Below the pieces are notes generated by a model. That model was not told the origin of the DNA, did no database searches, and saw nothing but the letters and a program-made list of their open reading frames with translations. A stretch of DNA of 64,000 nt from Mytilus galloprovincialis (Eukaryota; Mollusca; Bivalvia; Mytilida; Mytilidae): the NCBI RefSeq assembly GCF_965363235.1, contig NC_134840.1:57902793-57966792 (forward strand), written 5' to 3'. Both the position numbers and the translations under genes were made by a program. Positions 6,011 through 63,370 of the stretch are shown in pieces (the stretch's first letter is position 1; every line of letters begins with the position of its first letter).

Positions 6011-6011
6011 T

Positions 6012-7348: not shown

Positions 7349-8094
7349 AAATGTTTTGATTTGAACATACGTGCTTAAAGTAAACAAATTAATTTACGTG
7401 TTCCCGAGTAACCTTTAGAAATACATTTTTAAACAATGTACATATGTATTGTTAAATGTTTGATATTTTGCGGTGAGATATTCCTTGAAATATATATTTC
7501 TTAAATAGCATAATGATTTTGAAACAAATATGTACACATAGAATCATTTTTATATCAGCATGGACAACCACAAAACTTTTTTTGGTAATAATACTGGATC
7601 CATTACTGTTTACTTGTTTGTCATCGGATATCGAAAACAGTGATTTCACATTCCCTCAGTCTGTCAGAAGCTTTCCAGTGGGGATTTAAATAGAATAACA
7701 GAGTAACGTACATATAGGTTCAAAAGAAGAAAAAGAAAGTTTAAGTATTCAACATTTAAAGGAAAACCTTTGGCGACCCTACAGTTTGAATGTCTATAAC
7801 ACGTACGATATGAAAAGTAGGCGTTACAGAAAAACATTCACCTATTCTGGCCCAGTCAATTCGATAACCTGAAAACGCCAAGAAGTGGTCTTGTCCACGC
7901 TGTTATGAAAATAATTATATTTAACAATGAAAATATTAAATCATAAAAATACAACCTAAAATGAATACCGTATATTACAGCTTTTATACGGCAATTCGGC
8001 TTTTACAATGATAGGTTTCCAAAACCCTTTGTTATTCTCTGAATGTGAGTTGATTACCGTTTAATACGGATTCATTGTACGAACTGTAAAATCA
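7349..8094. other. Non-coding stretch, nothing recognised
   Basis: AT-rich sequence with no convincing exon, RNA gene or repeat match inside this window. Short open frames here have no family resemblance. Confidence 0.5.
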
Positions 8095-17090: not shown

Positions 17091-18714
17091 TTTTTCTGAT
17101 GTCACCTTTTGAAATTTGCATCTGTTTTTATGTGATTTTGTTCATGTATGGCATTTATGCTATGATTGTTAAATAGATCATATATAACAGTATTTCTTAT
17201 CTTCTATGCAACAGTAGCAAAAAAAAAAGATTTAAAATATCCCAAACATCTTTTGAATTATTTATGATTTTATTTTCTTCAAATGAAATAGTCTTTTGCC
17301 CTTGGGATTTGCATTTTTTTTTTTTTTTTGACAGTATCCCAAAAATCAGCACTTTTTGATCCTCCAGAACATCGTTCTAAAAAATATATTTTCATAGATT
17401 TCCTTTTTAACTTATTTACTAAATTTCTTTGCTGTAAGTATGATTATTTCTTCTTTTTTTTTTGTATACTTAGAAATAGCATGTGTTTTCGGTTAATGGC
17501 TTTTCTTAATTCTCCATTCATACATGGAAGAGGACTTTTTCTTGGATACCTTGACTTCAAAGGTGCATGTTTGTCTAGTGTGCTAATAAAGTTATTTTCA
17601 TATGTCTGAATCTCATTTACCTGTTCTGCAGTTGTTACTCTATCTGCAATGTAAATCTTAATTTTGCGGCAATATCATTATTATTCAGCATTTTCTTTCA
17701 ATTGACTGTGATCTTAACAAGTCTTTGATCCTGTGTAATAACAAATACTTACATCCACAACTATCATTATTCGTTCTTCTAAGAAATTATAATAATTTGA
17801 ATGTTAAAATATGGTTTTTGTCAAAAATGAAAGTGGCCTTATCCGTGTCCATCCTCAACCTTTATATACATGTATGTTATGTATTATCATCAAATACACC
17901 TTACATTTCAATATTAAGAATGAACACAGATGCAAATTTGATACAGTAATTAGTTTTATTTATAATTCATGTCACGTTGTACACTAAGTCAAGTTATTTA
18001 CACGTAAAGTTCTTCAAGCAAGTTTTAAAATAGTTTTCTTGTGTGTTATTTTTAGTTTGCACTTAAGTGACATGCTTACTATAGCATGCAGATCTATTTT
18101 AGAATTATTTGAAGTTTCTTATTCTTAAAAAAATAGAAAAATTTCATATTTTGAGGCTCAAAAGGGTGGTTTTTGTTTACAAAAAAAAAGGGGTGAATCT
18201 TGGCAATGTGTTTGTTTTTAATGTTTGAATAATTGTACTTTCGAGGAAATACATCTTTTAGACGATATGTAACATATCTAAATCAGTGCCAATGTAAGTT
18301 GCACGCTGGCAAATAATAATTATTTTACTTCCTTTAAACCCATCCCTAACTTTACCAGGTAACTTCATTTCATCAAGAAAGTTTAAATATAGCATTACCC
18401 TAATACATGAAACTAGAAATCCGACTGTAAAAATATAATTATGATATTGTACAAAAATACACATGGAGAGAAATATACTAAATGTAATATGAACTCATTG
18501 TACCTTGAAGTGAATGGTTTAAAATGTATGAATTGAACTATATTTAAAACTCTTTTATGTTTTATATGCATTGAAATTATGTGAATTTTTATCCTGGACA
18601 TTGCACAAAATTATGTTTCTCTTGCTTTTATATATACTATAACACACCTGCGAAATCGCGGGCATTCAGAGCGTAGTTTAAATTATGTAAAGTGTTGTTG
18701 GAAGAATTTTGTAA

Positions 18715-31390: not shown

Positions 31391-31606
31391 TTAATCTATT
31401 ACATTGAAAAAGTAAATACCAAAAATACCAAACTCCAAGGAAAATTCCTGAGAAAAAATGTGACAATAATTTTCAACTTTGCTGTTCATTTTTTAAAAGT
31501 TTGTAAGTGTTCGGTAAACAAGAGGTTGCTGATTGATGAATCTTAAAACGCATCATATGATAAAACTGACTTTGTACTTGTTTTGGCTTGCAAACTTTTT
31601 TCATCT

Positions 31607-31653
31607 GAGCGTAACTGGTTGGTCTTGTGTGGATGAAACGCGCGTCTGGCGTA
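31607..31653 (+). ncRNA. Degenerate hammerhead ribozyme copy
   Basis: The plus strand keeps the flanks and right half of the 356-bp-type ribozyme ('gaaacgcgcgtctggcgta', then 'ttggtaccttttg'). The first core element is CTGGTTG instead of CTGATGA and stem II is damaged. It should be inactive. The surrounding 31,570-31,690 resembles the retrozyme unit on the same strand. Confidence 0.7.
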
Positions 31654-32149
31654 TTAAATTTTACACTTGGTACCTTTTGTCTATTAATCGTGTGTTTCTC
31701 TGTCCTATATGTTCTCCCATTTATTTGTATTGTAGTCCTGTCATGTATTGTTGTCATTTTAATGTTATATTTAAAATTGCAATAAAAGAGGGAGGTTTGA
31801 CATGCTATAAAACCAGGTTCAACCCACCATTTATTTTCTTAAAATGTCCTGTACCAAGTCAGGAAAATGGCCATTGCTATATCATAGTTCGTTTCTGTTT
31901 GTGTTACATTTTAATGTTCCGTTTCTGTTGTGTCGTAGTTCTCCTCTTATATTTGATGTGTTTCCCTCAGTTTTAGTTTGTAACCCAGATTTTTTGTTTT
32001 TTTTTTCTCAATTGATTTATGAATTTCGCACAGCGGAATACTACTGTTGCCTTTATTTATATAAACCTTGAAACCAAATTTCAGAAATCCTTAGAGTGAC
32101 TTTTAATGTCGAAAACTTTTTAAATTGAACAAAAGGTAAACGTTGTAAA

Positions 32150-32260
32150 AAGTAAAATTCCAAAAATACTGTACTTCGAGGAAAACTCAAAACGGAAAGT
32201 CCCTAATCAAATAGCAAAATCAAAAGCTCAAACACGTCAAACGCATGGATAATAACTATC
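32150..32260 (+). repeat. Dispersed repeat also found at the duplication breakpoint
   Basis: 'gtaaaattccaaaaatactg', 'gaggaaaactc', 'aaagtccctaatcaaat' and 'aaagctcaaacacgtcaaac' match 52,940-53,018 and 62,403-62,520. This family is the sequence that was interrupted when the ribozyme array arrived. 32,261-32,750 holds nothing I recognise. Confidence 0.7.
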
Positions 32261-33010: not shown

Positions 33011-35440
33011 TAAATAGTCTAATTCGGTAGGTCACATTCATGAAAGGGAAGGGGATCGTAGTTACGACGTAAGGAACATATCCGATATCATTGTAAAACG
33101 GTTATTCCATAACGGTCAACCAAATCGTGATGGCGTTCGTAAAATGTACGAAGGGATGATTTCAACTTCACCATTTAGAACTCTTGGTTTAATATCTCCC
33201 TTGTGAGCAGCAACTCTCTATCAAGAAAATCATGATAGGAAATGCAAGCACGGAAATATCGTATCAAAAATACCCCTTATGCAGGTGATGCTGGAATGTT
33301 GCTACTTAGAAATGGAAAGTTCACAATTGGAAAGCTGAAATCATCTCTTTTATAGTAAAGTTGTTTTCAACCGACCCTCATTGTCAGTTTCTAGATGAAA
33401 GTCAAGATATGAGGCTGACTTAACTGTATCTGTAGTTTCCTTTATCTCTAGTTCGATGGGATAGATGCGTTCCACATAGTCACCACATTTTGAATTATTT
33501 AGTGAAAGAACATCATATATATAGCGGAAAGAAGAGTTAAAGGATACCGCTAACTTCTTATGTTTCTTCCTGCATGAAGTCAGCCTCATAATAATAAAGA
33601 AACAAGTTTTTTTCCCATTGGAATGCCGACAGTCTGTTAAAAAAACATGTCCTCCGAACGTAACAAATATGTTGTCAATCAAGAAATCAAGCATCTTGAT
33701 AATATCAGTTTCAAAGAATTTTTTGTTTGAATCAGAGTGATCTTTTACAAAGTAGGATTTATTTCTCCCTAAGACTAGATACTTATATCTACGTTGGCCA
33801 TTCTTTTTTATGAAGCAAAGCAATACCAACTCTTTCAATTTGTCTTTTAGTTTGGAATGTGGAATACTTGTGTAAAGAGTAGAAAAGTCAAATGTTTTGA
33901 TACTATTACAATATGAAAGAGAGTTAGATTGTATGTACTCTAAAAGATCTTTGGAATGTTTAAGTATCCTTATCTGATTCATGCAACCTCTAGAATAGGC
34001 AGTTTCACAATAACTTTGGAGCCCATCTTTGATTGCTGATAAAATAGATGTTAATAATTTAGAAAGAGGTTTCGTGGAGCACTTGGAAGACCCAACAATA
34101 TACCGTTGTTTGTAAGGACACTTATGTAGTTTAGGTATCCAATACAGTGATGGAAGATCCAGTTCTTCATCTTTGGTTGAAATTCCAAAGGAACATAGAA
34201 CAGACCTATGATTATCCAGGATTTCCTCTTTGGTAAGTGTCATGAGAGTATATGTTGAGTTTCCAAGTGAATTGTCAATACATAATTCGTTTATCAAGCA
34301 GTTAATGTAATGAGTTTTACACACAGAAACGATGGTGTTTAGGGCTTTATCTGCGGGGACAACAACATAGTTGTCATGAAGGTAGGATAAGTGTTTTGCA
34401 ACATTTGGGTCTTTAAAGATCGACGTAGCATGGGCATTGATAGACCCATTCAGTTTCTTAATTCTGACTTGTATCAACGACCTCACTGCCTTAATCCATT
34501 CGGAAAGAGTGTCTACTTCTTCCTTCTCGCGCTTAGCCCATTGCCTGACATAGTCCTCGACTGAATCCATCAAAATTTTAAAGTTGTATTTCCAATTGAT
34601 GGATTTAGGCTCACGATATATCGGACCTTTCGATAACACATTTCGTAGAGGAGAGTTATTAACAATGTTGAGGTCACCGGTAAAAACGTGACCAGCCGGA
34701 TTATATGTGAATCGGGAACAAGCACAAGTGCAATCAGGAGGTTTAGACTTGAAGTCGTCAATATCGAGATCCTGCAAAACGTGTTTGTAATTGAAAATTT
34801 TAGTTGCAATAGGTTTGGTATAGGTATAAGAAATGATTGGTCCAGACTGGTCTTTGAAATAAGGAAGTATTTTCGATTGAACTAATTTATGATGAAGGAT
34901 ATTGCCTAAGTTGACGCCATTGAGACCTTTGTTGTCAAAGGAAATATTAAGGAAAGATCTTTTCTCTTTTTCATCTTTTCTAATGCAGACTGGCTTGAAA
35001 AGTCTGTGACTTGCAATATCCGAAATTATAGCTTCAAGTTTGTATTGGTTTGAATGAGGGTTTGTAACAGTGTATTCCAAACATAAATTGAACAGAGAAT
35101 GAAGTTTTGAAAGGGGTAATGAATAAAGTTTCGTGCGAATGTGATGAATACCTAACGGCTTTTGTATAAATGGCAGCAAGTCATTAACAGAGACATAATG
35201 CAGAGAAGGTGATGTATAATGACGGTGACCATGACTGCGTCTACGTCGAGGAGTCGAGTTGGAAATTTTCATCATAATAACCGAGTTACACGAAGGACTA
35301 GATAGAATACCTATACCATCAATTTTGTCATAATGTGTCGCAGTTCCCAATTGTCTAATCCAGTAGTCCTCTTTTTGTCTACGTAGAGTCGTTGAAAGAT
35401 TAGGATTGTTAGAGCTATGGTATATCTTTTCGAAAAGTCA
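33010..35440 (-). mobile_element. Penelope-like element (PLE): GIY-YIG tail then reverse transcriptase, broken
   Basis: The minus strand has a 666-residue frame (35,350-33,350). Known PLE blocks in order: PLGIHHIRTKLYSLPLSKLH (65-84), a CTCAC cysteine cluster (207-211), VVVPADKALNTIV (329-341), LPSLYWIPKLHKCPYKQRYI (399-418) and FDFSTLYTSIPH (487-498), with the family's YIYPIELEIK- and SASYLD-type blocks before 652. The frame extends upstream as STTLRRQKEDYWIRQLGTA, which resembles the end of a GIY-YIG endonuclease and so places that domain before the RT. Downstream, minus-strand sequence to about 33,010 continues the family tail (RDDFSFPIVNFPFL, FYERHHDLVDRYGI). The copy is broken with a handful of breaks and lacks an intact start. 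PLEs reverse-transcribe their RNA at chromosomal sites and many carry hammerhead ribozymes. PLE identity is secure; domain order is inference. Confidence 0.88.
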
Positions 35441-37726: not shown

Positions 37727-39032
37727 GGTTCATCATAACAAACGGACAAATATGGCTGTATTTACATGCCAAAAATTACTCTGAGTACAGACTTACCTGT
37801 AAAGTTAGAAAAGTTTTAATGCCTAGCATTCACTAGATATATATGGCACGCCGTTATTATATTTATTCAATTTCGAGATATATTATTTAGTTAAATAAGA
37901 TATCTTATAAACTAATTGAGATATCTTAATAACAAAATGAGATATCTTATATATTAATTGAAATATCTGATTTATTAAATAAGATATCTTATTAACTTAT
38001 AGAGATATCTTATAAACTAATAGAGATATCTTATGAACTTTTAGAGATATCTTATTAACTTATAGAGATATCTTATTAACTTATAGAGATATCTTATAAA
38101 CTAATAGAGATATCTTATAAACTTTTAGAGATATCTTATTAACTTATAGAGATATCTTATTTAATTGGTTATAAAGATATCTTTTTAATATATAAGATAT
38201 CTCCATAAGTTAATAAGATATCTCTATTAGTTTATAAGATATCTCTATTAATTAATAAGATATCTTATAAAGTATGTATTTAAAAGATATCTTTATAAAG
38301 AAGTTAGATATCTTATATACTTTATAAGATATCTTATTAATTAATAGATATATCTTATTAACTTATATAGATATCTTATAAACTAATAGAGATATCTTAT
38401 AAACTAATAGAGATATCTTATAAACTAATAGAGATATCTTATTTACTTCCAAATTAAATAAGATATCTTATAAAAATTAAAGATATCTTAATACTTGATA
38501 AGATATATTGTTAAATAAATAAGATATCTTCAAATTTGAATAAATATAAAAACGGTGTGCCATAGATATACTAAAGTTAAATGCATTTTGTGTTTCAGAA
38601 AGATAAAATCTCTTTTGGATTTTGATGGGCATTTTTTTTCCTTCATGCAAAAGGTGTAAAAATTGACTAAGTTGTGGTACAACTATGAGATGCTCCCTTA
38701 GGTAAAAAAACCAGTTTGTATTGTTTTCATTGTCCTTAATTGACTTGGACACCAGGTATCTTCACAACTATAGGTGAGTTAAAGAGTTTATCTGAGTCAG
38801 TGAGTGGACAGTATCAAAGTAATTCATTTTTGCACCTTCTGCAGAACGGAAAAAAATGCCCATCAAAAACCAAGAAAGATTTTATCTTTCTTAAGCACAA
38901 AATGCATTTAACTTTTATATATCTAGTGGATGCTAGGCATTAAAACTTTCCAAACAGCACAGGTAAGTCTGTACACAGAGTAGTTTTTGAGGTGAAAATA
39001 CGGCCATATTTGTCCATTTGTTATGATGAACC
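37727..39032. mobile_element. TTAA-flanked fold-back DNA element (1,306 bp)
   Basis: Both ends start GGTTCATCATAAC (inverted at 39,032) and are flanked by TTAA (37,723-37,726 and 39,033-39,036). Inverted homology runs about 115 bp inward (37,727-37,840 against 38,920-39,032). A second, inner inverted pair exists (38,575-38,680 against 38,840-38,935). There is no transposase, so it is non-autonomous. A TTAA target with purine-first ends fits Kolobok better than piggyBac (which starts CC). The superfamily is inference, but the insertion itself is proven by the split host repeat. Confidence 0.8.
37845..38562. repeat. Array of AGATATCTTAT palindromes inside the TTAA element
   Basis: About 30 copies of GATATC-centred palindromes spaced about 21-22 bp with A/T linkers ('aactaatagag', 'aacttatagag'). 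Orientation of the linkers flips near 38,190-38,260. The array is bounded by a 26-bp imperfect inverted repeat (ggcacgccgttattat... at 37,845; inverse ending ggtgtgcc at 38,562), so it may itself be a nested element. Confidence 0.8.
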
Positions 39033-42797: not shown

Positions 42798-42845
42798 TAC
42801 GCCAGACACGCGTTTCGTCTACGAAAAACTCATCAGTGACGAAAA
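42798..42845 (-). ncRNA. Type I hammerhead ribozyme, core intact
   Basis: The minus strand reads CGTCA-CTGATGA-GTTT-TTCGT-AGAC-GAAA-CGCGTG-TC-TGGCG. Stem I has 5 pairs (one G-U), stem II 4 pairs (one G-U), stem III 2 pairs around ACGCGTGT, and all core residues (CUGAUGA, GAAA, C17) are present. It lies in a dispersed retrozyme-like element (about 42,735-42,900) nested in the 42.0-44.1 kb transposon. A 13-bp 'ggcgtaaatataa'-type duplication lies just downstream of the cleavage site. Predicted active; not tested. Confidence 0.8.
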
Positions 42846-47371: not shown

Positions 47372-50300
47372 ATGAGGAAAGGGGAAGTGGATGGTTGCTG
47401 GGGATGGATGATAGTGGCAGCCGCTGCCTTAAACAGAATAGTGATATATGGGATATCATACTCAGCTGGTGTGGTTTATGTTGTCATCCTAGAAGTTTTT
47501 AACGAAGGGAGCGGGATAACATCATGGATATCTTCTCTCATCACTGCTGTTTTATTTTTCACCTGTAAGTATTTGTGAAAACATGTCATTCCTTTTGCGC
47601 AGTTTATATCGTACATGTACATGTAGCAATCACGCATTGTTGTGTACGACCTTAAAATATTACGCATATAGTTATGTATTTATAGACATATGGATGTACA
47701 TGATGCATACTGTTTCATACTGCGAAACCGCTTCGAACGAATAAAATTTATAAAGTGCTAGTGTTTTACTTTTATATATTTTTTTCAAAATTTAAAATGG
47801 CGACATCCTTAATTTAATTTTTCGCTTGACTACATTTCATGAATCAAAACTCATCTTTGCCTGTCAATATTTTGTTTCAGTTGATAAATACGATGGAATA
47901 AGATTCGACAAGGTGAGTTAAATATAGGCTTATTTTTCATTATCTTGGCTTATATCCTCTCAAAGAAAAAGGTATACAACGATAATTCATTTCTTTTTGT
48001 CTAATAATGAACTAAACATTTGTTTTGATTATTCATGAAAAGTATGGTTTGTCTGTTTAAAAATAATAAATATTCATAAGACGTATGTATCTAAATAGTC
48101 ATAAAATTACCCATACTATAATTATAACTAAGTCTTGAAAACCATTACAGATAGAGTTTTCAAGGTACTTGTATTTATTAATAACTTTTCAATTTTCCAT
48201 TTCTATATGATACTACAATGTTTAATGAGCTATAAAAAGGTCAATTTCGTTTCGTCTAAACATAATTATGAATCATTTTTTGATATAATCATTATCTAAA
48301 ATATGTATAACTATGGGTGTGTTTGGATATACGCCTGAGGCATCCTATGGTTACCCATAGGTACCTATGGTTTGATATTTTGTGCATAAAATATCAAACA
48401 ATAGGTACCTATGGGTAACTATAGGCCGCCTCAGGCGTATATCCAAACACCCCCTATGTGGGGTCATCACACTTTGTTGAATTTAAATTCTTTCATCGAA
48501 ATTAAACGAAAGAACAACTACATAATTTTATATCTACCAAGTGTTTCGTCACAGAATTCCCGTTAAACTTAAAATAAATTGTATCACTTAAACCGCTAGG
48601 TCCGTTTTAACCTTACACTTAAAACAGTTTCCCTTTTGGTGCACTTGTATCTGAGTCGAGTTCACACCATTTACTTTTTTTCCCCCGTGAACATTGTGTT
48701 GCTTCAATTTAATTTTGCTATGAAGATTATTTTGATCAGGGTTTTTTTCCTTTAGACATAACGATGTCTGTTCTTTGGTTACATGTAGTATTATAAGAAA
48801 GTTTTTTAAAATTCTCCTTTGGTATAGTAATTTTTTTCTTAATTTAACCAGAGACATAATAATAATTCTTTCTTTTTTAATAATTTGCATTTTCTTGCAG
48901 TTAAATATTTTAAAACAATGATTTCTACTTTATATCTAACGATAATAGCAATTTAGAATTCTACCTTAATTTGCCAGAGTTAAGTTAAAGATATACGATA
49001 GAAAATAGTCTGTCTTACAAGCAGTTTATAAATTTCATTTCAGTTTGGGTCGCGCTTCTTCCATGACTTTTTGACAGTGTATTCATCAAGAGTTATATGT
49101 TAGCTAATGTATTTTAGTTTTCCACTTTCAGCAATTCATCACCTGAAGATAACTCTTGCTTACGCGCATATCGTAACATTGTAGCGGTGTGTTCGACAGT
49201 AAATATTACTTGTTCTTTTGTAAAACAGTCGATTTTTGAACTGAAAGCTGTAGAAGAAGAAAAAGCGAGATAGCTGGTTGGATCATAAATGATGGTTAAA
49301 TTTTTACAAAATGGCAATGCGAAGATGTTCTATAATGTAACAGAATCCTATGTTAGTATATTTCCTTTCAGGTCCATTGTCTGGATACTTGATTGAAAGA
49401 TTTGGTGAACGGAAGGTTGCCATTGCCGGAAGTCTGATTGCAGGTATCGGCATGACGTCATCAGCTTTTGTCAATTCCGTTCCAGCACTTCTTCTGACTT
49501 ACGGCATAATTTCAGGTAAAAACATATTTGGGACATCAGAAGTGAACAAAATACACTTTTTAATTACTGACGTATTACATGTAAATAATACCTGTTACCC
49601 TTACAAAATTTATGCAAACTTGTTCCTTCTATATATAATTATATTTACAGTGAGGTATATGCACATTACTTGGTTATCTACACAGATATATTTGAACATA
49701 TTTTTAGCAATACCGTAAATGTTATGCATAATACTATGTGATAAATCTTGTATTTCATTTTACTTCCAAGACAGACATCTACATCCTTTTTCTGTGTCAA
49801 AAGATAATATTCATCGAAGTATAATAGTTGTTATATTTTCTAGCGATTTAAGAAATATCATAATGCTGTACCTTGTAAACTTTGAATACTGTAGTTGTTT
49901 GCACAGGTAGTGTTGCCTAATGCTCTTAAAACATAATTAAACAGTAACTCGGGCTTTTGGCCAATCAATTTCATGTACACTGGATCTCATAATATATGTG
50001 TTGAGGATATTGAAATATGTTTACAGGCATAGGATGCGGAATAGCGTTTATGCCAGGAAGTGTAGCAGTGGCTAAATACTTTAAAAAACATCGAAACCTA
50101 GCAATGGCGATAGCTTCCGCAGGAGGCGGAGTAGGTAGTTTTGCATTCCCACCGATTATTGAAATGTTAAATGAATATTACACATGGCGTGGTATGTTTT
50201 TGATTCTTGGTGGTGTAACACTCAATATATGTGTATTTGGATCATTAATGCGGCCTTTAAGACATGATATCAGCCCAGAACAAAAGTCCCAAGAGAGTGG

Positions 50301-52081
50301 GTATTCATCGGACAAATCAGAATATAGTAAGTTACAAAAGAGCAATGTTAGCAAGAATCTCAAGACAGTACCTTTGAATGGAGAAAGTGAAAACTTCGAA
50401 CGAGTTGGATTTCTTGACAAACATTTTTATCTGAAAATTCCATCGTTTTACATCCTCATAATCAATAATTTTATGTATCAGTTTGGTGCATCGATTATCC
50501 TAGGTCACCTTCAAGCTTATGCAGTTTTTCAGCAAGGATTTACTAAGCCAAATGCTGCCATTTTATATACAATTTCCGGTGTTATGGTTCTTGTTTTCAA
50601 ACTTTTACATGGTGTTTTTGCAAATATGAGCCATGTTAAATTATTTAGACCAATTTATCAATATATATTCTTCTATGCATTAGGTGGTATAGCAACAATT
50701 TGTTTGATTATAAATTCCCGCTACGGAGTATACTTTTATAGTGCAGTATTTGGAATGAGTTATGCAGCATGTGGAGGCTCCCTTATCCCAGCTTTAATCA
50801 TTGACATTTCTGGTGTAGAAACATTTGGTGTTACATATGGAATTGTGCTTCTCGGTTTAGCATTTGGACAATTAACTGGTGCTCCTGTAGCAGGTAAGTC
50901 TTGTTTCTGAATGCACTTTAATTAATTTGAGAAAAATGTTTTGTAGGCGTGTCGAAAAGGGACGGAAGATACCAGAGGGACAAACTCATAGATTGAAAAT
51001 AAACTGACAACGCCATGGCTAAAAATAAAAAGAAAAACAGACAAATAATAGTACAGAAGACCCAACATAGAAAATTAAAGACTAAACAACACGAACCCCA
51101 CAAAACACTGGGGGTGATCTAAGGTGCTCTGGAAGGGTAAGCAGACCCTGCTCCGCATGTGTATATTTCGTCTCCTTCTGTTGGCATTCATTGTTCTCAT
51201 TACAAAAAGGGTACTTGTATAAACTACTTAAGCATACATGACGCGTCGTTAAACAGTTCAGAAGCGTAGACTTACACGTCATATACATGAACAAAAGCAC
51301 GTTAAAAGTAGCAGAGAAAATGACAACATTCGAAGTTTACATAGCCTTTCAATCAATATCAAACGGGGCTATATTATATCATCTTATATAAGTATTACCG
51401 AATAAAAACTACTATTCGAACAAAACTGTGAACATATAAATAACACGCTCTTTATAAAGATGCTGTTTCCGGAGCGTTTACAAATATATTATACCGTTTG
51501 GAAGAATACAACTAGTTGAAACAAGCTTAAAGACTTTTGTTTTTGTTTTAATATTTAATGAACTAATTGTTGCAGGTTTGTTATATGAACACCAGAAAAC
51601 ATATGATACTGCCTTCATCCTTGCTGGATCCATGATGATAGCAAGTGCTTTAATAATGATTTATCCTCTGAAAACTGATCTTAACCCTTCAAAACTAAAT
51701 AAACAAATTAAAAATAACATAGAAATACATATTGAAGAAATTGATTCAATAAACGATGAGGTGCTTACCGTTTTTGATCCAATATCAATGTCCGTCGTTA
51801 AGGGAAGCAGAACAAGTCTTCATAGTGGAAACATCGACAATTTACACAGTGCAGGGAACTTTTATCACAGTTCTTATGGTTTACATCGAATCAATCGACT
51901 AAGTGACAGTTTGGAAACTATAGAAGTTGGACCAAGATCATCAAGTTTTAGTGTTCATAGGCATATAGCTCGTCCACACAGTGGAAATACACAACAACCA
52001 AGTAGACTTCTGAATGCATTAAGACAGGAAGGTCAACCCCACTACCATCCAATACTTTCACCACTTGCAATAGAGCGATAA
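47372..52081 (+). CDS. SLC16 family monocarboxylate transporter-like protein (four coding exons, copy A)
   Basis: Exons: 47,372-47,564, 49,372-49,515, 50,027-50,893 and 51,576-52,081; all introns are GT/AG and phase 1, giving 569 residues. Exon 1 carries the SLC16 TM1 signature as EVDGCWGWMIVAA. Later: SGYLIERFGERKVAIAG (TM2-3 loop, MFS-type), GIAFMPGSVAVAKYFKKHRN, AMAIASAGGGVGSFAFPPII (TM5), YYTWRGMFLILGG (TM6), a long serine-rich loop (DISPEQ...NFERVG), a second six-helix half (FYILIINNFMYQFGAS onward), and TM12 plus a long Ser/His-rich cytoplasmic tail in exon 4. Family members move monocarboxylates, amino acids or hormones across the plasma membrane, some with H+; the substrate here is unknown. 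ATG chosen because it precedes the signature by five residues; an acceptor-like AG sits just upstream. Exons 3-4 are duplicated downstream. Confidence 0.85.
47881..47912 (+). other. Candidate 32-nt frame-shifting cassette exon in SLC16 intron 1
   Basis: 'tgtttcag' acceptor, 32 nt, then 'gtgagt' donor. Joined to exon 1 it reads through as FDKYDGIRFDK with no stop, but because 32 is not a multiple of three, exon 2 would then hit TGA after six codons. It could be a poison exon or a chance splice-site pair. Confidence 0.3.
48318..48457. repeat. Fold-back MITE in SLC16 intron 1
   Basis: A near-complete hairpin: 'gtgtttggatatacgcctga' to 'tttgatatttt', loop 'gtgcat', then the inverse back to 'caggcgtatatccaaacac'. 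Arms are about 65 nt with few mismatches. Confidence 0.85.
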
Positions 52082-53018
52082 TTTAGATGCTTATAAAAAT
52101 TTTGTTATGGAAAAACGACCAATAGTTAAACTATCAGTATTATGTGAAATTCGATTATATATGATAATAAGTTAGAAAATCTCATAATAGGTATTTTCTT
52201 TAAATATTTAACATGGCGGTCTACTTTTTTAACGAATTAAATCTTTCATAATGGATGGTTTTACATACATGAAGGTTAAAATGATCTACAAAAGGAACTT
52301 GTATTTCATATAGGTCACGAAACTTAATCTGATAAAAATAATTTGTTATTGTTTGTGTGTATGTACGAAGATTGCTTCATGAACGGAGCACCCCTATAAC
52401 CTAATGATTACCAGAAAAATAGTTTACAATTACGGGCGTATGATATAGAAAAGTGAATTCCGCGCATTTTGAATGGTCATCATGAGCAACGTTGCGTTAA
52501 ATGTGTTAATTGCTCTTGCGACTGTGCCAATAAGGCCAGAGAAAAGTCTTGATTGATTGGAAAAGTTCCCGGCGCTTGTAAACTTGCATCTATAGGTAAA
52601 ATATAAAATGGTTGCATATTCGGATACAAACTGTATATGAAGATAAAAACATCTTACAGTGTTAAAAGATGCAAATAATGTGAAACATATTAAGGTTGTT
52701 TTTTTAAAGCCACGATTATTTTTCGAATAGTTTTATTTTTCAATATTGATAATTTATAAACATACAAACTTAATTTGTTATAAGAACTTACATTACAAGA
52801 GTACGTTAAAGTACTGTAACACGTCTTTTTGTGATTTTTATGCCCCACCATAGACGAAGGGAACATACACCTATGTTGTTGAAAAAGAGAAGAAAGTAGC
52901 AAACAAAACTACATCCAATACATCCATCGAATCATTTGAAAAAAGTAAAATCACCAAAATACTGAACTCCGAGGAAAATTCATCAAAGAAAGTCCCTGAT
53001 CAAATGTCAATATAAAAA
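49744..53018 (+). repeat. SLC16 tandem duplication, copy A (3,275 bp)
   Basis: Corresponds base for base (offset 9,463) to 59,207-62,481. It spans part of intron 2, exon 3, intron 3, exon 4 and about 930 bp of 3' sequence. I saw two substitutions (50,684-50,685 region: GGT codon versus TGT in copy B; and one in the 3' flank near 52,783). It ends inside a dispersed repeat at 53,018, where the ribozyme array begins with a 3-bp AAA overlap. Confidence 0.9.
50945..51155. repeat. Dispersed repeat in SLC16 intron 3
   Basis: Same family as 32,765-33,010 ('gacggaagataccagaggga', 'aacaacacgaaccccac', 'ggaagggtaagcagaccctg'). Short minus-strand frames here are accidents of the repeat. Confidence 0.75.
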
Positions 53019-53050
53019 TAGTTATCAAAAGTACCAGGATTATAATTTTA

Positions 53051-53097
53051 TACGCCAGACGCGCGTTTCGTCTACATAAGACTCATCAGTGACGCTC
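53051..53097 (-). ncRNA. Type I hammerhead ribozyme (first of 18 in the array)
   Basis: Minus strand: GAGCGTCA-CTGATGA-GTCT-TATGT-AGAC-GAAA-CGCGCG-TC-TGGCGTA. Stem I is GCGTCA with TGGCGT (6 pairs, two G-U). Stem II is GTCT/AGAC capped by TATGT. Stem III is two pairs (A-U, C-G) with a GCGC loop. The core CUGAUGA/GAAA is perfect, and cleavage is expected after GTC, between 53,058 and 53,057. ACGCGCGT is self-complementary, as in ribozymes of Penelope-like elements and retrozymes that can pair as dimers. Copies recur every 356 bp to 59,103-59,149, 18 in total. The one at 57,002-ish carries a change in stem I (gaagctc for gacgctc). Confidence 0.92.
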
Positions 53098-53287
53098 ATA
53101 TCAAAATAGTTAAAAAAGCCAAATAAATACAAAGTTGAAGAGCATTGAGGACCTAAAATTCCAAAAAGTTGTGCCAAATACGGCTAAGGTAATCTACTCC
53201 TGGGGTAAGAAAATCCTTAGTTTTTCGAAAAATTCAATGTTTTTTAAACAGAAAATTTATAAAAATGACCATATAATTGATATTCAT

Positions 53288-53348
53288 GTCAACACCGAAG
53301 TGCTGACTACTGGGCTGGTGAAACCCTCGGGGACGAAACGTCCACCAG
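53288..53348 (-). ncRNA. Second structured module of the retrozyme unit
   Basis: Minus strand, 5' to 3': helix CTGGTG (53,348-53,343) / CACCAG (53,320-53,315) enclosing hairpin GACG-TTT-CGTC, followed by hairpin GTCAGCAC-TTCG-GTGTTGAC (53,307-53,288), eight pairs with one G-U and a cUUCGg tetraloop. In the diverged copy at 63,077-63,137 the pairs are kept by a compensatory change (GACG/CGTC to GACA/TGTC) and by C-to-U changes that give G-U wobbles only on this strand. Repeats with every array unit. Function unknown. Confidence 0.75.
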
Positions 53349-56300
53349 CAGTGGCATCGACCCAGTGGTGTAAATAATTATCAAAAGTACCAGGATTATA
53401 ATTTTATACGCCAGACGCGCGTTTCGTCTACATAAGACTCATCAGTGACGCTCATATCAAAATAGTTAAAAAAGCCAAATAAATACAAAGTTGAAGAGCA
53501 TTGAGGACCTAAAATTCCAAAAAGTTGTGCCAAATACGGCTAAGGTAATCTACTCCTGGGGTAAGAAAATCCTTAGTTTTTCGAAAAATTCAATGTTTTT
53601 TAAACAGAAAATTTATAAAAATGACCATATAATTGATATTCATGTCAACACCGAAGTGCTGACTACTGGGCTGGTGAAACCCTCGGGGACGAAACGTCCA
53701 CCAGCAGTGGCATCGACCCAGTGGTGTAAATAGTTATCAAAAGTACCAGGATTATAATTTTATACGCCAGACGCGCGTTTCGTCTACATAAGACTCATCA
53801 GTGACGCTCATATCAAAATAGTTAAAAAAGCCAAATAAATACAAAGTTGAAGAGCATTGAGGACCTAAAATTCCAAAAAGTTGTGCCAAATACGGCTAAG
53901 GTAATCCACTCCTGGGGTAAGAAAATCCTTAGTTTTTCGAAAAATTCAATGTTTTTTAAACAGAAAATTTATAAAAATGACCATATAATTGATATTCATG
54001 TCAACACCGAAGTGCTGACTACTGGGCTGGTGAAACCCTCGGGGACGAAACGTCCACCAGCAGTGGCATCGACCCAGTGGTGTAAATAGTTATCAAAAGT
54101 ACCAGGATTATAATTTTATACGCCAGACGCGCGTTTCGTCTACATAAGACTCATCAGTGACGCTCATATCAAAATAGTTAAAAAAGCCAAATAAATACAA
54201 AGTTGAAGAGCATTGAGGACCTAAAATTCCAAAAAGTTGTGCCAAATACGGCTAAGGTAATCTACTCCTGGGGTAAGAAAATCCTTAGTTTTTCGAAAAA
54301 TTCAATGTTTTTTAAACAGAAAATTTATAAAAATGACCATATAATTGATATTCATGTCAACACCGAAGTGCTGACTACTGGGCTGGTGAAACCCTCGGGG
54401 ACGAAACGTCCACCAGCAGTGGCATCGACCCAGTGGTGTAAATAGTTATCAAAAGTACCAGGATTATAATTTTATACGCCAGACGCGCGTTTCGTCTACA
54501 TAAGACTCATCAGTGACGCTCATATCAAAATAGTTAAAAAAGCCAAATAAATACAAAGTTGAAGAGCATTGGGGACCTAAAATTCCAAAAAGTTGTGCCA
54601 AATACGGCTAAGGTAATCTACTCCTGGGGTAAGAAAATCCTTAGTTTTTCGAAAAATTCAATGTTTTTTAAACAGAAAATTTATAAAAATGACCATATAA
54701 TTGATATTCATGTCAACACCGAAGTGCTGACTACTGGGCTGGTGAAACCCTCGGGGACGAAACGTCCACCAGCAGTGGCATCGACCCAGTGGTGTAAATA
54801 GTTATCAAAAGTACCAGGATTATAATTTTATACGCCAGACGCGCGTTTCGTCTACATAAGACTCATCAGTGACGCTCATATCAAAATAGTTAAAAAAGCC
54901 AAATAAATACAAAGTTGAAGAGCATTGAGGACCTAAAATTCCAAAAAGTTGTGCCAAATACGGCTAAGGTAATCTACTCCTGGGGTAAGAAAATCCTTAG
55001 TTTTTCGAAAAATTCAATGTTTTTTAAACAGAAAATTTATAAAAATGACCATATAATTGATATTCATGTCAACACCGAAGTGCTGACTACTGGGCTGGTG
55101 AAACCCTCGGGGACGAAACGTCCACCAGCAGTGGCATCGACCCAGTGGTGTAAATAGTTATCAAAAGTACCAGGATTATAATTTTATACGCCAGACGCGC
55201 GTTTCGTCTACATAAGACTCATCAGTGACGCTCATATCAAAATAGTTAAAAAAGCCAAATAAATACAAAGTTGAAGAGCATTGAGGACCTAAAATTCCAA
55301 AAAGTTGTGCCAAATACGGCTAAGGTAATCTACTCCTGGGGTAAGAAAATCCTTAGTTTTTCGAAAAATTCAATGTTTTTTAAACAGAAAATTTATAAAA
55401 ATGACCATATAATTGATATTCATGTCAACACCGAAGTGCTGACTACTGGGCTGGTGAAACCCTCGGGGACGAAACGTCCACCAGCAGTGGCATCGACCCA
55501 GTGGTGTAAATAGTTATCAAAAGTACCAGGATTATAATTTTATACGCCAGACGCGCGTTTCGTCTACATAAGACTCATCAGTGACGCTCATATCAAAATA
55601 GTTAAAAAAGCCAAATAAATACAAAGTTGAAGAGCATTGAGGACCTAAAATTCCAAAAAGTTGTGCCAAATACGGCTAAGGTAATCTACTCCTGGGGTAA
55701 GAAAATCCTTAGTTTTTCGAAAAATTCAATGTTTTTTAAACAGAAAATTTATAAAAATGACCATATAATTGATATTCATGTCAACACCGAAGTGCTGACT
55801 ACTGGGCTGGTGAAACCCTCGGGGACGAAACGTCCACCAGCAGTGGCATCGACCCAGTGGTGTAAATAGTTATCAAAAGTACCAGGATTATAATTTTATA
55901 CGCCAGACGCGCGTTTCGTCTACATAAGACTCATCAGTGACGCTCATATCAAAATAGTTAAAAAAGCCAAATAAATACAAAGTTGAAGAGCATTGAGGAC
56001 CTAAAATTCCAAAAAGTTGTGCCAAATACGGCTAAGGTAATCTACTCCTGGGGTAAGAAAATCCTTAGTTTTTCGAAAAATTCAATGTTTTTTAAACAGA
56101 AAATTTATAAAAATGACCATATAATTGATATTCATGTCAACACCGAAGTGCTGACTACTGGGCTGGTGAAACCCTCGGGGACGAAACGTCCACCAGCAGT
56201 GGCATCGACCCAGTGGTGTAAATAGTTATCAAAAGTACCAGGATTATAATTTTATACGCCAGACGCGCGTTTCGTCTACATAAGACTCATCAGTGACGCT

Positions 56301-59206
56301 CATATCAAAATAGTTAAAAAAGCCAAATAAATACAAAGTTGAAGAGCATTGAGGACCTAAAATTCCAAAAAGTTGTGCCAAATACGGCTAAGGTAATCTA
56401 CTCCTGGGGTAAGAAAATCCTTAGTTTTTCGAAAAATTCAATGTTTTTTAAACAGAAAATTTATAAAAATGACCATATAATTGATATTCATGTCAACACC
56501 GAAGTGCTGACTACTGGGCTGGTGAAACCCTCGGGGACGAAACGTCCACCAGCAGTGGCATCGACCCAGTGGTGTAAATAATTATCAAAAGTACCAGGAT
56601 TATAATTTTATACGCCAGACGCGCGTTTCGTCTACATAAGACTCATCAGTGACGCTCATATCAAAATAGTTAAAAAAGCCAAATAAATACAAAGTTGAAG
56701 AGCATTGAGGACCTAAAATTCCAAAAAGTTGTGCCAAATACGGCTAAGGTAATCTACTCCTGGGGTAAGAAAATCCTTAGTTTTTCGAAAAATTCAATGT
56801 TTTTTAAACAGAAAATTTATAAAAATGACCATATAATTGATATTCATGTCAACACCGAAGTGCTGACTACTGGGCTGGTGAAACCCTCGGGGACGAAACG
56901 TCCACCAGCAGTGGCATCGACCCAGTGGTGTAAATAGTTATCAAAAGTACCAGGATTATAATTTTATACGCCAGACGCGCGTTTCGTCTACATAAGACTC
57001 ATCAGTGAAGCTCATATCAAAATAGTTAAAAAAGCCAAATAAATACAAAGTTGAAGAGCATTGAGGACCTAAAATTCCAAAAAGTTGTGCCAAATACGGC
57101 TAAGGTAATCTACTCCTGGGGTAAGAAAATCCTTAGTTTTTCGAAAAATTCAATGTTTTTTAAACAGAAAATTTATAAAAATGACCATATAATTGATATT
57201 CAAGTCAACACCGAAGTGCTGACTACTGGGCTGGTGAAACCCTCGGGGACGAAACGTCCACCAGCAGTGGCATCGACCCAGTGGTGTAAATAGTTATCAA
57301 AAGTACCAGGATTATAATTTTATACGCCAGACGCGCGTTTCGTCTACATAAGACTCATCAGTGACGCTCATATCAAAATAGTTAAAAAAGCCAAATAAAT
57401 ACAAAGTTGAAGAGCATTGAGGACCTAAAATTCCAAAAAGTTGTGCCAAATACGGCTAAGGTAATCTACTCCTGGGGTAAGAAAATCCTTAGTTTTTCGA
57501 AAAATTCAATGTTTTTTAAACAGAAAATTTATAAAAATGACCATATAATTGATATTCATGTCAACACCGAAGTGCTGACTACTGGGCTGGTGAAACCCTC
57601 GGGGACGAAACGTCCACCAGCAGTGGCATCGACCCAGTGGTGTAAATAGTTATCAAAAGTACCAGGATTATAATTTTATACGCCAGACGCGCGTTTCGTC
57701 TACATAAGACTCATCAGTGACGCTCATATCAAAATAGTTAAAAAAGCCAAATAAATACAAAGTTGAAGAGCATTGAGGACCTAAAATTCCAAAAAGTTGT
57801 GCCAAATACGGCTAAGGTAATCTACTCCTGGGGTAAGAAAATCCTTAGTTTTTCGAAAAATTCAATGTTTTTTAAACAGAAAATTTATAAAAATGACCAT
57901 ATAATTGATATTCATGTCAACACCGAAGTGCTGACTACTGGGCTGGTGAAACCCTCGGGGACGAAACGTCCACCAGCAGTGGCATCGACCCAGTGGTGTA
58001 AATAGTTATCAAAAGTACCAGGATTATAATTTTATACGCCAGACGCGCGTTTCGTCTACATAAGACTCATCAGTGACGCTCATATCAAAATAGTTAAAAA
58101 AGCCAAATAAATACAAAGTTGAAGAGCATTGAGGACCTAAAATTCCAAAAAGTTGTGCCAAATACGGCTAAGGTAATCTACTCCTGGGGTAAGAAAATCC
58201 TTAGTTTTTCGAAAAATTCAATGTTTTTTAAACAGAAAATTTATAAAAATGACCATATAATTGATATTCATGTCAACACCGAAGTGCTGACTACTGGGCT
58301 GGTGAAACCCTCGGGGACGAAACGTCCACCAGCAGTGGCATCGACCCAGTGGTGTAAATAGTTATCAAAAGTACCAGGATTATAATTTTATACGCCAGAC
58401 GCGCGTTTCGTCTACATAAGACTCATCAGTGACGCTCATATCAAAATAGTTAAAAAAGCCAAATAAATACAAAGTTGAAGAGCATTGAGGACCTAAAATT
58501 CCAAAAAGTTGTGCCAAATACGGCTAAGGTAATCTACTCCTGGGGTAAGAAAATCCTTAGTTTTTCGAAAAATTCAATGTTTTTTAAACAGAAAATTTAT
58601 AAAAATGACCATATAATTGATATTCATGTCAACACCGAAGTGCTGACTACTGGGCTGGTGAAACCCTCGGGGACGAAACGTCCACCAGCAGTGGCATCGA
58701 CCCAGTGGTGTAAATAGTTATCAAAAGTACCAGGATTATAATTTTATACGCCAGACGCGCGTTTCGTCTACATAAGACTCATCAGTGACGCTCATATCAA
58801 AATAGTTAAAAAAGCCAAATAAATACAAAGTTGAAGAGCATTGAGGACCTAAAATTCCAAAAAGTTGTGCCAAATACGGCTAAGGTAATCTACTCCTGGG
58901 GTAAGAAAATCCTTAGTTTTTCGAAAAATTCAATGTTTTTTAAACAGAAAATTTATAAAAATGACCATATAATTGATATTCATGTCAACACCGAAGTGCT
59001 GACTACTGGGCTGGTGAAACCCTCGGGGACGAAACGTCCACCAGCAGTGGCATCGACCCAGTGGTGTAAATAGTTATCAAAAGTACCAGGATTATAATTT
59101 TATACGCCAGACGCGCGTTTCGTCTACATAAGACTCATCAGTGACGCTCATATCAAAATAGTTAAAAAAGCCAAATAAATACAAAGTTGAAGAGCATTGA
59201 GGACCT

Positions 59207-62200
59207 AATCTTGTATTTCATTTTACTTCCAAGACAGACATCTACATCCTTTTTCTGTGTCAAAAGATAATATTCATCGAAGTATAATAGTTGTTATATT
59301 TTCTAGCGATTTAAGAAATATCATAATGCTGTACCTTGTAAACTTTGAATACTGTAGTTGTTTGCACAGGTAGTGTTGCCTAATGCTCTTAAAACATAAT
59401 TAAACAGTAACTCGGGCTTTTGGCCAATCAATTTCATGTACACTGGATCTCATAATATATGTGTTGAGGATATTGAAATATGTTTACAGGCATAGGATGC
59501 GGAATAGCGTTTATGCCAGGAAGTGTAGCAGTGGCTAAATACTTTAAAAAACATCGAAACCTAGCAATGGCGATAGCTTCCGCAGGAGGCGGAGTAGGTA
59601 GTTTTGCATTCCCACCGATTATTGAAATGTTAAATGAATATTACACATGGCGTGGTATGTTTTTGATTCTTGGTGGTGTAACACTCAATATATGTGTATT
59701 TGGATCATTAATGCGGCCTTTAAGACATGATATCAGCCCAGAACAAAAGTCCCAAGAGAGTGGGTATTCATCGGACAAATCAGAATATAGTAAGTTACAA
59801 AAGAGCAATGTTAGCAAGAATCTCAAGACAGTACCTTTGAATGGAGAAAGTGAAAACTTCGAACGAGTTGGATTTCTTGACAAACATTTTTATCTGAAAA
59901 TTCCATCGTTTTACATCCTCATAATCAATAATTTTATGTATCAGTTTGGTGCATCGATTATCCTAGGTCACCTTCAAGCTTATGCAGTTTTTCAGCAAGG
60001 ATTTACTAAGCCAAATGCTGCCATTTTATATACAATTTCCGGTGTTATGGTTCTTGTTTTCAAACTTTTACATGGTGTTTTTGCAAATATGAGCCATGTT
60101 AAATTATTTAGACCAATTTATCAATATATATTCTTCTATGCATTATGTGGTATAGCAACAATTTGTTTGATTATAAATTCCCGCTACGGAGTATACTTTT
60201 ATAGTGCAGTATTTGGAATGAGTTATGCAGCATGTGGAGGCTCCCTTATCCCAGCTTTAATCATTGACATTTCTGGTGTAGAAACATTTGGTGTTACATA
60301 TGGAATTGTGCTTCTCGGTTTAGCATTTGGACAATTAACTGGTGCTCCTGTAGCAGGTAAGTCTTGTTTCTGAATGCACTTTAATTAATTTGAGAAAAAT
60401 GTTTTGTAGGCGTGTCGAAAAGGGACGGAAGATACCAGAGGGACAAACTCATAGATTGAAAATAAACTGACAACGCCATGGCTAAAAATAAAAAGAAAAA
60501 CAGACAAATAATAGTACAGAAGACCCAACATAGAAAATTAAAGACTAAACAACACGAACCCCACAAAACACTGGGGGTGATCTAAGGTGCTCTGGAAGGG
60601 TAAGCAGACCCTGCTCCGCATGTGTATATTTCGTCTCCTTCTGTTGGCATTCATTGTTCTCATTACAAAAAGGGTACTTGTATAAACTACTTAAGCATAC
60701 ATGACGCGTCGTTAAACAGTTCAGAAGCGTAGACTTACACGTCATATACATGAACAAAAGCACGTTAAAAGTAGCAGAGAAAATGACAACATTCGAAGTT
60801 TACATAGCCTTTCAATCAATATCAAACGGGGCTATATTATATCATCTTATATAAGTATTACCGAATAAAAACTACTATTCGAACAAAACTGTGAACATAT
60901 AAATAACACGCTCTTTATAAAGATGCTGTTTCCGGAGCGTTTACAAATATATTATACCGTTTGGAAGAATACAACTAGTTGAAACAAGCTTAAAGACTTT
61001 TGTTTTTGTTTTAATATTTAATGAACTAATTGTTGCAGGTTTGTTATATGAACACCAGAAAACATATGATACTGCCTTCATCCTTGCTGGATCCATGATG
61101 ATAGCAAGTGCTTTAATAATGATTTATCCTCTGAAAACTGATCTTAACCCTTCAAAACTAAATAAACAAATTAAAAATAACATAGAAATACATATTGAAG
61201 AAATTGATTCAATAAACGATGAGGTGCTTACCGTTTTTGATCCAATATCAATGTCCGTCGTTAAGGGAAGCAGAACAAGTCTTCATAGTGGAAACATCGA
61301 CAATTTACACAGTGCAGGGAACTTTTATCACAGTTCTTATGGTTTACATCGAATCAATCGACTAAGTGACAGTTTGGAAACTATAGAAGTTGGACCAAGA
61401 TCATCAAGTTTTAGTGTTCATAGGCATATAGCTCGTCCACACAGTGGAAATACACAACAACCAAGTAGACTTCTGAATGCATTAAGACAGGAAGGTCAAC
61501 CCCACTACCATCCAATACTTTCACCACTTGCAATAGAGCGATAATTTAGATGCTTATAAAAATTTTGTTATGGAAAAACGACCAATAGTTAAACTATCAG
61601 TATTATGTGAAATTCGATTATATATGATAATAAGTTAGAAAATCTCATAATAGGTATTTTCTTTAAATATTTAACATGGCGGTCTACTTTTTTAACGAAT
61701 TAAATCTTTCATAATGGATGGTTTTACATACATGAAGGTTAAAATGATCTACAAAAGGAACTTGTATTTCATATAGGTCACGAAACTTAATCTGATAAAA
61801 ATAATTTGTTATTGTTTGTGTGTATGTACGAAGATTGCTTCATGAACGGAGCACCCCTATAACCTAATGATTACCAGAAAAATAGTTTACAATTACGGGC
61901 GTATGATATAGAAAAGTGAATTCCGCGCATTTTGAATGGTCATCATGAGCAACGTTGCGTTAAATGTGTTAATTGCTCTTGCGACTGTGCCAATAAGGCC
62001 AGAGAAAAGTCTTGATTGATTGGAAAAGTTCCCGGCGCTTGTAAACTTGCATCTATAGGTAAAATATAAAATGGTTGCATATTCGGATACAAACTGTATA
62101 TGAAGATAAAAACATCTTACAGTGTTAAAAGATGCAAATAATGTGAAACATATTAAGGTTGTTTTTTTAAAGCCACGATTATTTTTCGAATAGTTTTATT

Positions 62201-62481
62201 TTTCAATATTGATAATTTATAAACATACAAACTTAATTTGTTATAAAAACTTACATTACAAGAGTACGTTAAAGTACTGTAACACGTCTTTTTGTGATTT
62301 TTATGCCCCACCATAGACGAAGGGAACATACACCTATGTTGTTGAAAAAGAGAAGAAAGTAGCAAACAAAACTACATCCAATACATCCATCGAATCATTT
62401 GAAAAAAGTAAAATCACCAAAATACTGAACTCCGAGGAAAATTCATCAAAGAAAGTCCCTGATCAAATGTCAATATAAAAA
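59207..62481 (+). repeat. SLC16 tandem duplication, copy B (3,275 bp)
   Basis: Second copy of 49,744-53,018. Left junction with the array at 59,207-59,208 shares AA with both parents. To the right it continues without a break through 62,481 into the rest of the dispersed repeat ('agctgaaacacgtcaaatga'), so copy B keeps the undisturbed right flank. Confidence 0.9.
59490..61544 (+). pseudogene. SLC16 copy B: exons 3 and 4 only
   Basis: Exon 3B is 59,490-60,356 and exon 4B is 61,039-61,544, with acceptor, donor and phases identical to copy A. The only coding difference I see is ALCGIA for ALGGIA in the TM8-10 region. Exons 1 and 2 (TM1-3 with the family signature) are absent, so alone it cannot make a full transporter. 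It may be a partial duplicate, or an alternative 3' end used by splicing from exon 2 (6 kb array plus exons 3A-4A skipped), or from exon 3A to exon 4B. No disabling change lies inside the copied exons. Confidence 0.8.
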
Positions 62482-62904: not shown

Positions 62905-62911
62905 CAGTAAT

Positions 62912-63370
62912 TCTGGGTCCTCAATACTCTTCAACTTCATACTTGTTTGACTTTTGTAATTATTTTGATCTGAGTGTCACTGATGAGTCTTATGTAGACA
63001 AAACGCGCGTCTGGCGTATCAAATTCAAAGCCTGGTACCTTTGATAACTATTTTCGCCACTGGGTCCATGCCACTGCTGGTGGACATTTTGTCCCCGAGG
63101 GTATCACCAGTCAAGAAGTCAGTATTTTGGTGTTGACATGAATATCAATTATATGGTAATTTTTATGAATTAACTGTTTGCAAAAGTATGAATTATTCAA
63201 AATACTAAGAATTTCTTATCCATGGAATAGACCACCATAGCCGTATTTGGAACAATTTTTGAATTTTGGGTGCTCTTCGGCTTCATAAATGTTTGGCGTT
63301 CTTTCTATTTTGATCTTAGCGTCACTTATGATTCTTGGCATAGGCATATCGACCGAGGTGTACCAGACGT
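62912..63370 (+). mobile_element. Diverged retrozyme copy with two hammerhead sites, opposite orientation
   Basis: Plus-strand counterpart of the array unit: starts GGGTCCTCAATACTCTTCAA, hammerhead 1 at 62,972-63,018 (CTGATGA intact, stem II intact, but the GAAA element reads AAAA), spacer with the structured module at 63,040-63,137, then a second unit start and hammerhead-like remnant at about 63,319-63,365 (CTTATGA). Spacing of the two sites is about 346 bp. One spacer flanked by two ribozyme sites is the layout expected of a genomic retrozyme. It is old, clearly more diverged than the array, and probably inactive. Confidence 0.8.

Follow-up and report, generated by a model that had tools for sequence, protein, structure and literature searches.

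How did an array of ribozyme-bearing repeats come to lie between two copies of the same host exons? The question is raised by a 64-kb stretch of the Mytilus galloprovincialis genome (contig NC_134840.1; the window, hereafter, meaning all 64,000 nucleotides analysed), in which a head-to-tail array of 356-bp repeats with 18 hammerhead ribozyme sequences is flanked on both sides by a direct repeat of 3275 bp containing the 3' exons of a transporter gene. We are confident that the array is a retrozyme of known animal type, and it is best explained as the recent insertion of a non-LTR (long terminal repeat) retrozyme like those known from mussels. What deserves following up is the duplication around it, which, if real, would be a fresh trace of how a retrozyme integrated.

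A homogeneous tandem array of type I hammerhead ribozymes

Tandem Repeats Finder, run on the window, places the array at positions 53016–59208, with a period of 356 bp, 17.4 copies and 99% matches; the minus strand is the ribozyme-sense strand. Comparison of the units showed that 12 of the 17 complete ones match the consensus and that the remaining five together hold 6 substitutions, one of them common to units 2 and 11, giving a within-array divergence of 6/6188 (95% interval 3.6e-4 to 2.1e-3). Animal non-LTR retrozymes are described as tandem repeats of ~150–450 bp with low GC content and type I hammerheads, transcribed and processed into linear and circular RNA (PMC7229834); the unit length falls inside this range, and the unit GC content of 37.6% is under their limit of ~45–50%.

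The hammerhead core pattern CTGANGA...GAAACGCGCGTC matches 18 sites of the window, each of them on the minus strand (53058–53089 + 356n, n = 0 to 17), compared with none in 100 dinucleotide shuffles of the same sequence. The type I hammerhead pattern includes the stem III octamer ACGCGCGT, and its 18 occurrences are spaced 356 bp apart. A search of the 64 kb with the Rfam covariance model RF00163 (Hammerhead_1) recovered 18 motifs of 44 nt at 53052–53095 + 356n (overall 53052–59147, minus strand), 17 of which score 33.0 bits (E 2.4e-4 each) and one of which, in unit 12 (56968–57011), scores 28.6 bits (E 0.0065). All lie below the Rfam gathering score of 34 for this family, and a default Rfam scan of the window, which applies that curated score, gave no matches at all. 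The absence of a covariance hit, which an earlier note on this DNA named as refuting, is therefore seen at the gathering score, while 18 matches in register appear beneath it at the E values given; we take the 18 ribozymes as real. Cleavage is predicted between 53058 and 53057 (+356n) on the minus strand. In unit 12, a G-to-U change on the sense strand disrupts a stem-I G-C pair and moves the energy of the hammerhead fold from -3.4 to +1.4 kcal/mol, so that its ribozyme is predicted to be weak or inactive.

The earlier note had described 18 type I hammerheads with perfect cores in identical 356-bp units, cleaved at 53057 + 356n. The intact core is borne out by the exact core pattern in 18/18 copies on the minus strand, and the cleavage position agrees with both the pattern and the covariance coordinates. 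The count of 18 holds for the ribozymes, the units numbering 17.4, and the units are not identical, given the five variant ones and the broken stem-I pair of unit 12. A second ribozyme or other known RNA was not found in the spacer, which is hairpin-rich around 53300–53375 and in the corresponding repeats: the spacer had no Rfam match at E ≤ 10 in 52700–54200, and none at E ≤ 1 across the window.

A direct duplication brackets the array

On either side of the array stands a copy of the same 3275-bp sequence, both in plus orientation: a left copy (A) at 49744–53018 and a right copy (A') at 59207–62481, the latter offset by +9463. The two are 99.94% identical, with 2 differences and no gaps (95% interval for divergence 0.7e-4 to 2.2e-3). 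The edges of the duplication coincide exactly with both ends of the array, A meeting it at 53018/53019 and A' beginning at 59207; at these two junctions the sequences share AAA (3 nt) and AA (2 nt), respectively. Both the placement of the element and the shortness of the shared bases are those of an insertion-coupled tandem duplication as known for LINE-1. This duplication, missed by the earlier note, changes how the locus must have formed. The divergences of flank and array are compatible with one date, on few events, and the suggestion in the same note of a recent amplification is upheld by 6 substitutions in ~6.2 kb of array and by flanking copies that differ at 2 of 3275 positions. Nothing in the DNA speaks for the other suggestion made there, that of a candidate master locus.

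No short target-site duplication was found, the best common word within 41 bases of the junctions being 5 nt long and out of register. Its absence does not exclude retrozyme membership, because the family description makes the feature optional: target-site duplications of animal retrozymes are given as larger than 4 bp when present (PMC7229834), and that of a Nematostella retrozyme as 15 bp.

The array interrupts an older arrangement

A diverged repeat elsewhere in the window, at 32143–32257, aligns without interruption across the edge between A' and the sequence to its right (Y), with 97 of 117 columns identical and the alignment continuing 32 bases past the edge; against the left copy, the alignment ends at the edge of the array (69 of 85 columns). 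Judged from this repeat, therefore, A-Y is the old continuous arrangement, later interrupted by the array, and the right edge of A' runs on into old uninterrupted sequence. This test of age covers the A|Y edge only, via a related repeat; the edge between A and the sequence to its left (X) lies in an intron.

A profile search of the window located 23 retrozyme-related places, namely the 18 in the array, four other copies and a fragment of one of these four; no further copies were found at E ≤ 0.01, with a profile that was built from those same copies and tests only for additional ones. The 5' end of the array, which is its right end, corresponds to unit position 137. BLAST similarity starts at unit positions 141 and 132 in two of the four other copies, and because both fall within 5 nt of the array's 5' end, the latter is suggested to be a real element end.

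One of these copies is old and degenerate, spanning 1.23 units at 62909–63336 on the plus strand, opposite to the array and ~430 bp past the right flank copy; it is 82% identical to an array unit, and the core of its first hammerhead is changed from GAAA to AAAA. In an alignment inspected by eye, one of its spacer hairpins keeps its pairing through two changes, but both are of CpG type and the outer stem is broken, and we do not claim a conserved spacer structure. Three solitary hammerhead-like motifs, related to the ribozyme of the array but without its spacer, occur in the window: one at 42799–42842 (minus strand; RF00163, 22.9 bits) has an intact core, and those at 31567–31681 and 16724–16838 have damaged cores.

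A single target-primed insertion may have produced array and duplication

Entry of animal retrozymes into the genome is treated in the published work as an inference, modelled as the copying of a circle by an enzyme acting in trans, from a long interspersed nuclear element (LINE) or a Penelope-like element; for the source, its authors prefer Penelope-like elements or else other non-LTR retrotransposons (PMC7229834). For the present locus, we propose that transcription of the minus strand along an array would yield a multimeric RNA, and that a nick between A and Y (at 53018, which corresponds to 62481 in the intact copy) would expose a plus-strand 3' end ending in AAAAA. This A-run may have paired with UUU within the retrozyme sequence AACUAUUU so as to prime reverse transcription, and such pairing would set the array's strand as well as the direction in which it was synthesised. 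The array ends lie near AGGTCCTCAATG and AACTATTT; with the enzyme supplied in trans, a complementary DNA (cDNA) of ~17.4 units would have been made, on a template ending near AGGTCCTCAATG. Rather than closing locally with the usual short target-site duplication, the far end of the cDNA would then have joined, via the AA match, a sister-chromatid break lying 3275 bp upstream. The product would be X-A-array-A-Y, with the 3' exons of the host gene duplicated in tandem, over 3.3 kb, around the array.

A precedent for such an outcome comes from a pan-cancer study of LINE-1, which describes one tumour case of a tandem duplication with a single inserted LINE-1 at its junction and explains it by the joining of target-primed cDNA to a break in the sister chromatid (PMC7058536). 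In the same study, 47 of 63 LINE-1-mediated deletions showed microhomology of 1–5 nt (median 3) at the 5' junction, a range that includes the matches of 3 and 2 nt at the array junctions. A retrozyme at a tandem duplication was not met in the open-access PMC literature searched, which was not a full survey.

Taken as a whole, one aberrant target-primed insertion that made both array and duplication is the best explanation of the locus, and we hold it with moderate confidence. That array and duplication are both real and stem from one event we consider just slightly on the probable side. The most specific version, in which reverse transcription of a retrozyme at a nick beside the gene, joined to the sister chromatid 3.3 kb away, added 18 ribozymes and duplicated the transporter 3' exons in one step, is tentative and could well be wrong.

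Several observations weigh against this account. Units 2 and 11 have one substitution in common, a coincidence with a chance of 0.014 among 6 random changes, and this fits an older multimer as template, or a later exchange of units, better than one circle copied repeatedly. Target-site duplications of the published type are short, and 3.3 kb is far outside that range. The other two of the four further copies in the window start at unit positions 108 and 116, and the 3' end of the old 1.23-unit copy differs in position from that of the array. No source of reverse transcriptase was identified with confidence in the window. As for the RNA itself, folding of the 44-nt motif with ViennaRNA gave a competing structure that beats the hammerhead in 18/18 cases (-9.2 vs -3.4 kcal/mol in 17, and -8.1 vs +1.4 kcal/mol in unit 12), a caution for any claim of ribozyme activity. 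Animal retrozymes are described with highly self-paired RNA; here a circular unit RNA is no more stable than its shuffles, at -73.3 kcal/mol vs -70.5 ± 5.7 on the sense strand (z -0.5; 100 shuffles, the folded unit carrying the unit-2 variant); the antisense strand gave z -2.0 (100 shuffles), and we build no claim on circular folds.

Alternative explanations

Foremost among the alternatives is an assembly artefact, which we regard as unlikely although it deserves serious weight. The 3275-bp duplication would then be false, created by the assembler where a repeat is hard to resolve, and in reality the locus would read X-A-array-Y or would lack the duplication. It is at long homogeneous arrays and at heterozygous insertions that assemblers fail. 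The genome of this mussel, moreover, is described as widely heterozygous and hemizygous, with a mean heterozygosity of 1.73 ± 0.24% in shared regions (PMC7653742). Were A and A' two haplotypes, however, one would expect the 3275 bp to contain ~57 differences, compared with the 2 observed (P ~4e-22, Poisson, assuming this species and an even rate); the window also contains no N, and the proximity of the array's 5' end to the start of two of the four other copies is not that of an arbitrary break.

We find it rather improbable that the array arose by satellite expansion, with one or two units inserted and unequal exchange then enlarging the array in place, although such growth is compatible with our best explanation. 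Its homogeneity would in that case reflect exchange and not age, and both the very high level of that homogeneity and the occurrence of one variant in non-adjacent units speak for such exchange. Satellite expansion would nonetheless not account for the bracketing duplication, which has diverged to a degree compatible with the array's own.

A still smaller probability attaches to the repair of DNA with captured filler, in which a tandem duplication formed by double-strand-break repair or template switching took up array DNA, from an extrachromosomal circle or a cDNA, without target priming. It would produce the same anatomy with the same 2–3 nt junction matches, and copying of an older array would make the substitution common to units 2 and 11 natural. 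Two features fit an RNA with defined ends better, each of them weakly: the 3' junction, where the A-run meets the U residues of the element, and the 5' end of the array, which lies near that of two of the four other copies.

It is very unlikely that the array is a decayed repeat, persisting as sequence with no in vivo cleavage or circularisation from this locus, since its cores are intact in 18/18 copies with a single stem-I defect and mussel retrozyme circular RNA is described as abundant on northern blots, even though the hammerhead is not the minimum-energy fold and the published mussel ribozyme is reported to cleave slowly in vitro (kobs ~0.1 per min), mussel hammerheads lacking most loop-contact nucleotides (PMC7229834). 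An origin in two steps, with the array preceding the duplication or the reverse, would need the loss of an extra array or a strike exactly at the A/A junction, and is unlikely by this reasoning.

If, by contrast, target-primed insertion did form this locus, the ends of the array would mark the start and the stop of reverse transcription on a ribozyme-derived RNA, and would be an integration footprint. Protein-less retrozymes, which are mainly small circular RNAs, could then reshape host genes, and if the duplication is real, they would join LINE-1 as elements whose insertion duplicates host sequence, here exons. An insertion this young, with its two junctions, the intact edge of the pre-insertion state and the duplication around it, also allows precise predictions about priming (the A-run on UUU), the template end and the joining of ends.

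The duplicated transporter exons and other features of the window

The host gene is MCT/SLC16-like and lies on the plus strand, opposite to the ribozymes. An upstream exon outside the duplication (49341–49515; MFS_1, 33.4 bits) has a GT donor at 49516, assigned by eye, and a start that equals the limit of the open reading frame and is not mapped as a splice site. Within the left copy, the MFS exon at 50027–50893 (MFS_1, E 3.1e-25; acceptor ...TTTACAG and donor GTAAGT, by eye) finds its nearest PDB matches in monocarboxylate transporters 1 and 2 (E 3.1e-23 to 3e-21 for the MCT1/MCT2 chains). It is followed by an open reading frame at 51458–52081 with the presumed last exon, which gave no Pfam match and whose stop lies ~0.9 kb before the array. 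The second copies of the two are found at 59490–60356, the left coordinates shifted by +9463, and at 60921–61544. No upstream exon stands between the array and the MFS exon in the right copy, and it is the left gene copy that keeps 49341–49515. One of the two differences between A and A' is a missense change from Gly to Cys in the right copy (base 60146), which says little because the position aligns with Asn in MCT1.

Elsewhere in the window, two stretches at 16409–16741 and 8953–10053 (minus strand) are LINE-like reverse transcriptase fragments, with RVT_1 at 27.7 bits and zf-RVT at 26.6 bits, both just under their cut-offs. An open reading frame of 695 codons without internal stop (33350–35437, minus strand) gave no significant match in Pfam (best E 0.13) or the PDB (best E 0.67), and a structure model predicted from its single sequence was uninformative, with a mean predicted local distance difference test score (pLDDT) of 33.9; we presume from its motifs a resemblance to the reverse transcriptases of transposable elements, which Pfam and the PDB did not confirm and which we do not use as evidence. 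An AT-rich, hairpin-forming stretch at 14474–14588, with weak matches on both strands to several unrelated microRNA families far below their gathering scores, is probably an inverted repeat resembling a miniature inverted-repeat transposable element. A minisatellite at 37876–38547 has 21/42-bp units built on AAGATATCTT-like palindromes, and two pairs of direct repeats (950–2304 with 6009–7351, and 4980–6009 with 17603–18622; 1.0–1.4 kb, 91–92% identity) are probably interspersed transposable elements.

Comparison with known systems

Four core strings had no match in the main texts of the open-access papers searched, and the core and spacer patterns had none in viral_contigs and genome_contigs, which are collections of viruses and prokaryotes and uninformative about mussels. 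The nearest relatives by description are the non-LTR retrozymes of M. galloprovincialis itself (Cervera and de la Pena 2020, PMC7229834), for which ~5000 hammerheads in two families are reported, with repeats usually of 350–390 bp. The array shares with them the type I hammerhead, this repeat length, the low GC content and the lack of an LTR; it has in addition 17.4 near-identical units and the 3.3-kb bracketing duplication, the comparison being one by description. The anatomy of the locus and this published family support the proposal of the earlier note that the array is a retrozyme yielding unit-length circular RNAs. Its view of the array as unusually long is not supported in the light of the coral Acropora millepora, for which the same account gives retrozyme arrays of up to 62-mers, and the hammerhead array is accordingly a further member of a published kind, of a length that is not exceptional.

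The Acropora retrozymes are likewise tandem hammerhead repeats, with units of 220–245 bp, and the satellite-2-type retrozymes of newt and axolotl are tandem type I hammerhead repeats of ~330–350 bp; the latter differ in being vertebrate, and stem III is weaker in their HHR_Amex1 type; both were compared by description only (PMC7229834). Plant LTR retrozymes share the processing of circular RNAs by hammerheads, but are described with type III hammerheads, LTRs and 4-bp target-site duplications, unlike the array (PMC4918200); the type I hammerheads and head-to-tail arrangement seen here do not fit such an element, and no in-register 4-bp duplication was met, although none was sought as such. For the bracketing duplication, the closest parallel is the LINE-1-mediated tandem duplication, which likewise has retroelement cDNA where the two direct copies meet, is modelled by sister-chromatid joining and has short microhomology reported for the related deletions, and which differs in being human and somatic, in spanning 22.6 Mb, in being a single case and in involving an element with its own enzymes (PMC7058536).

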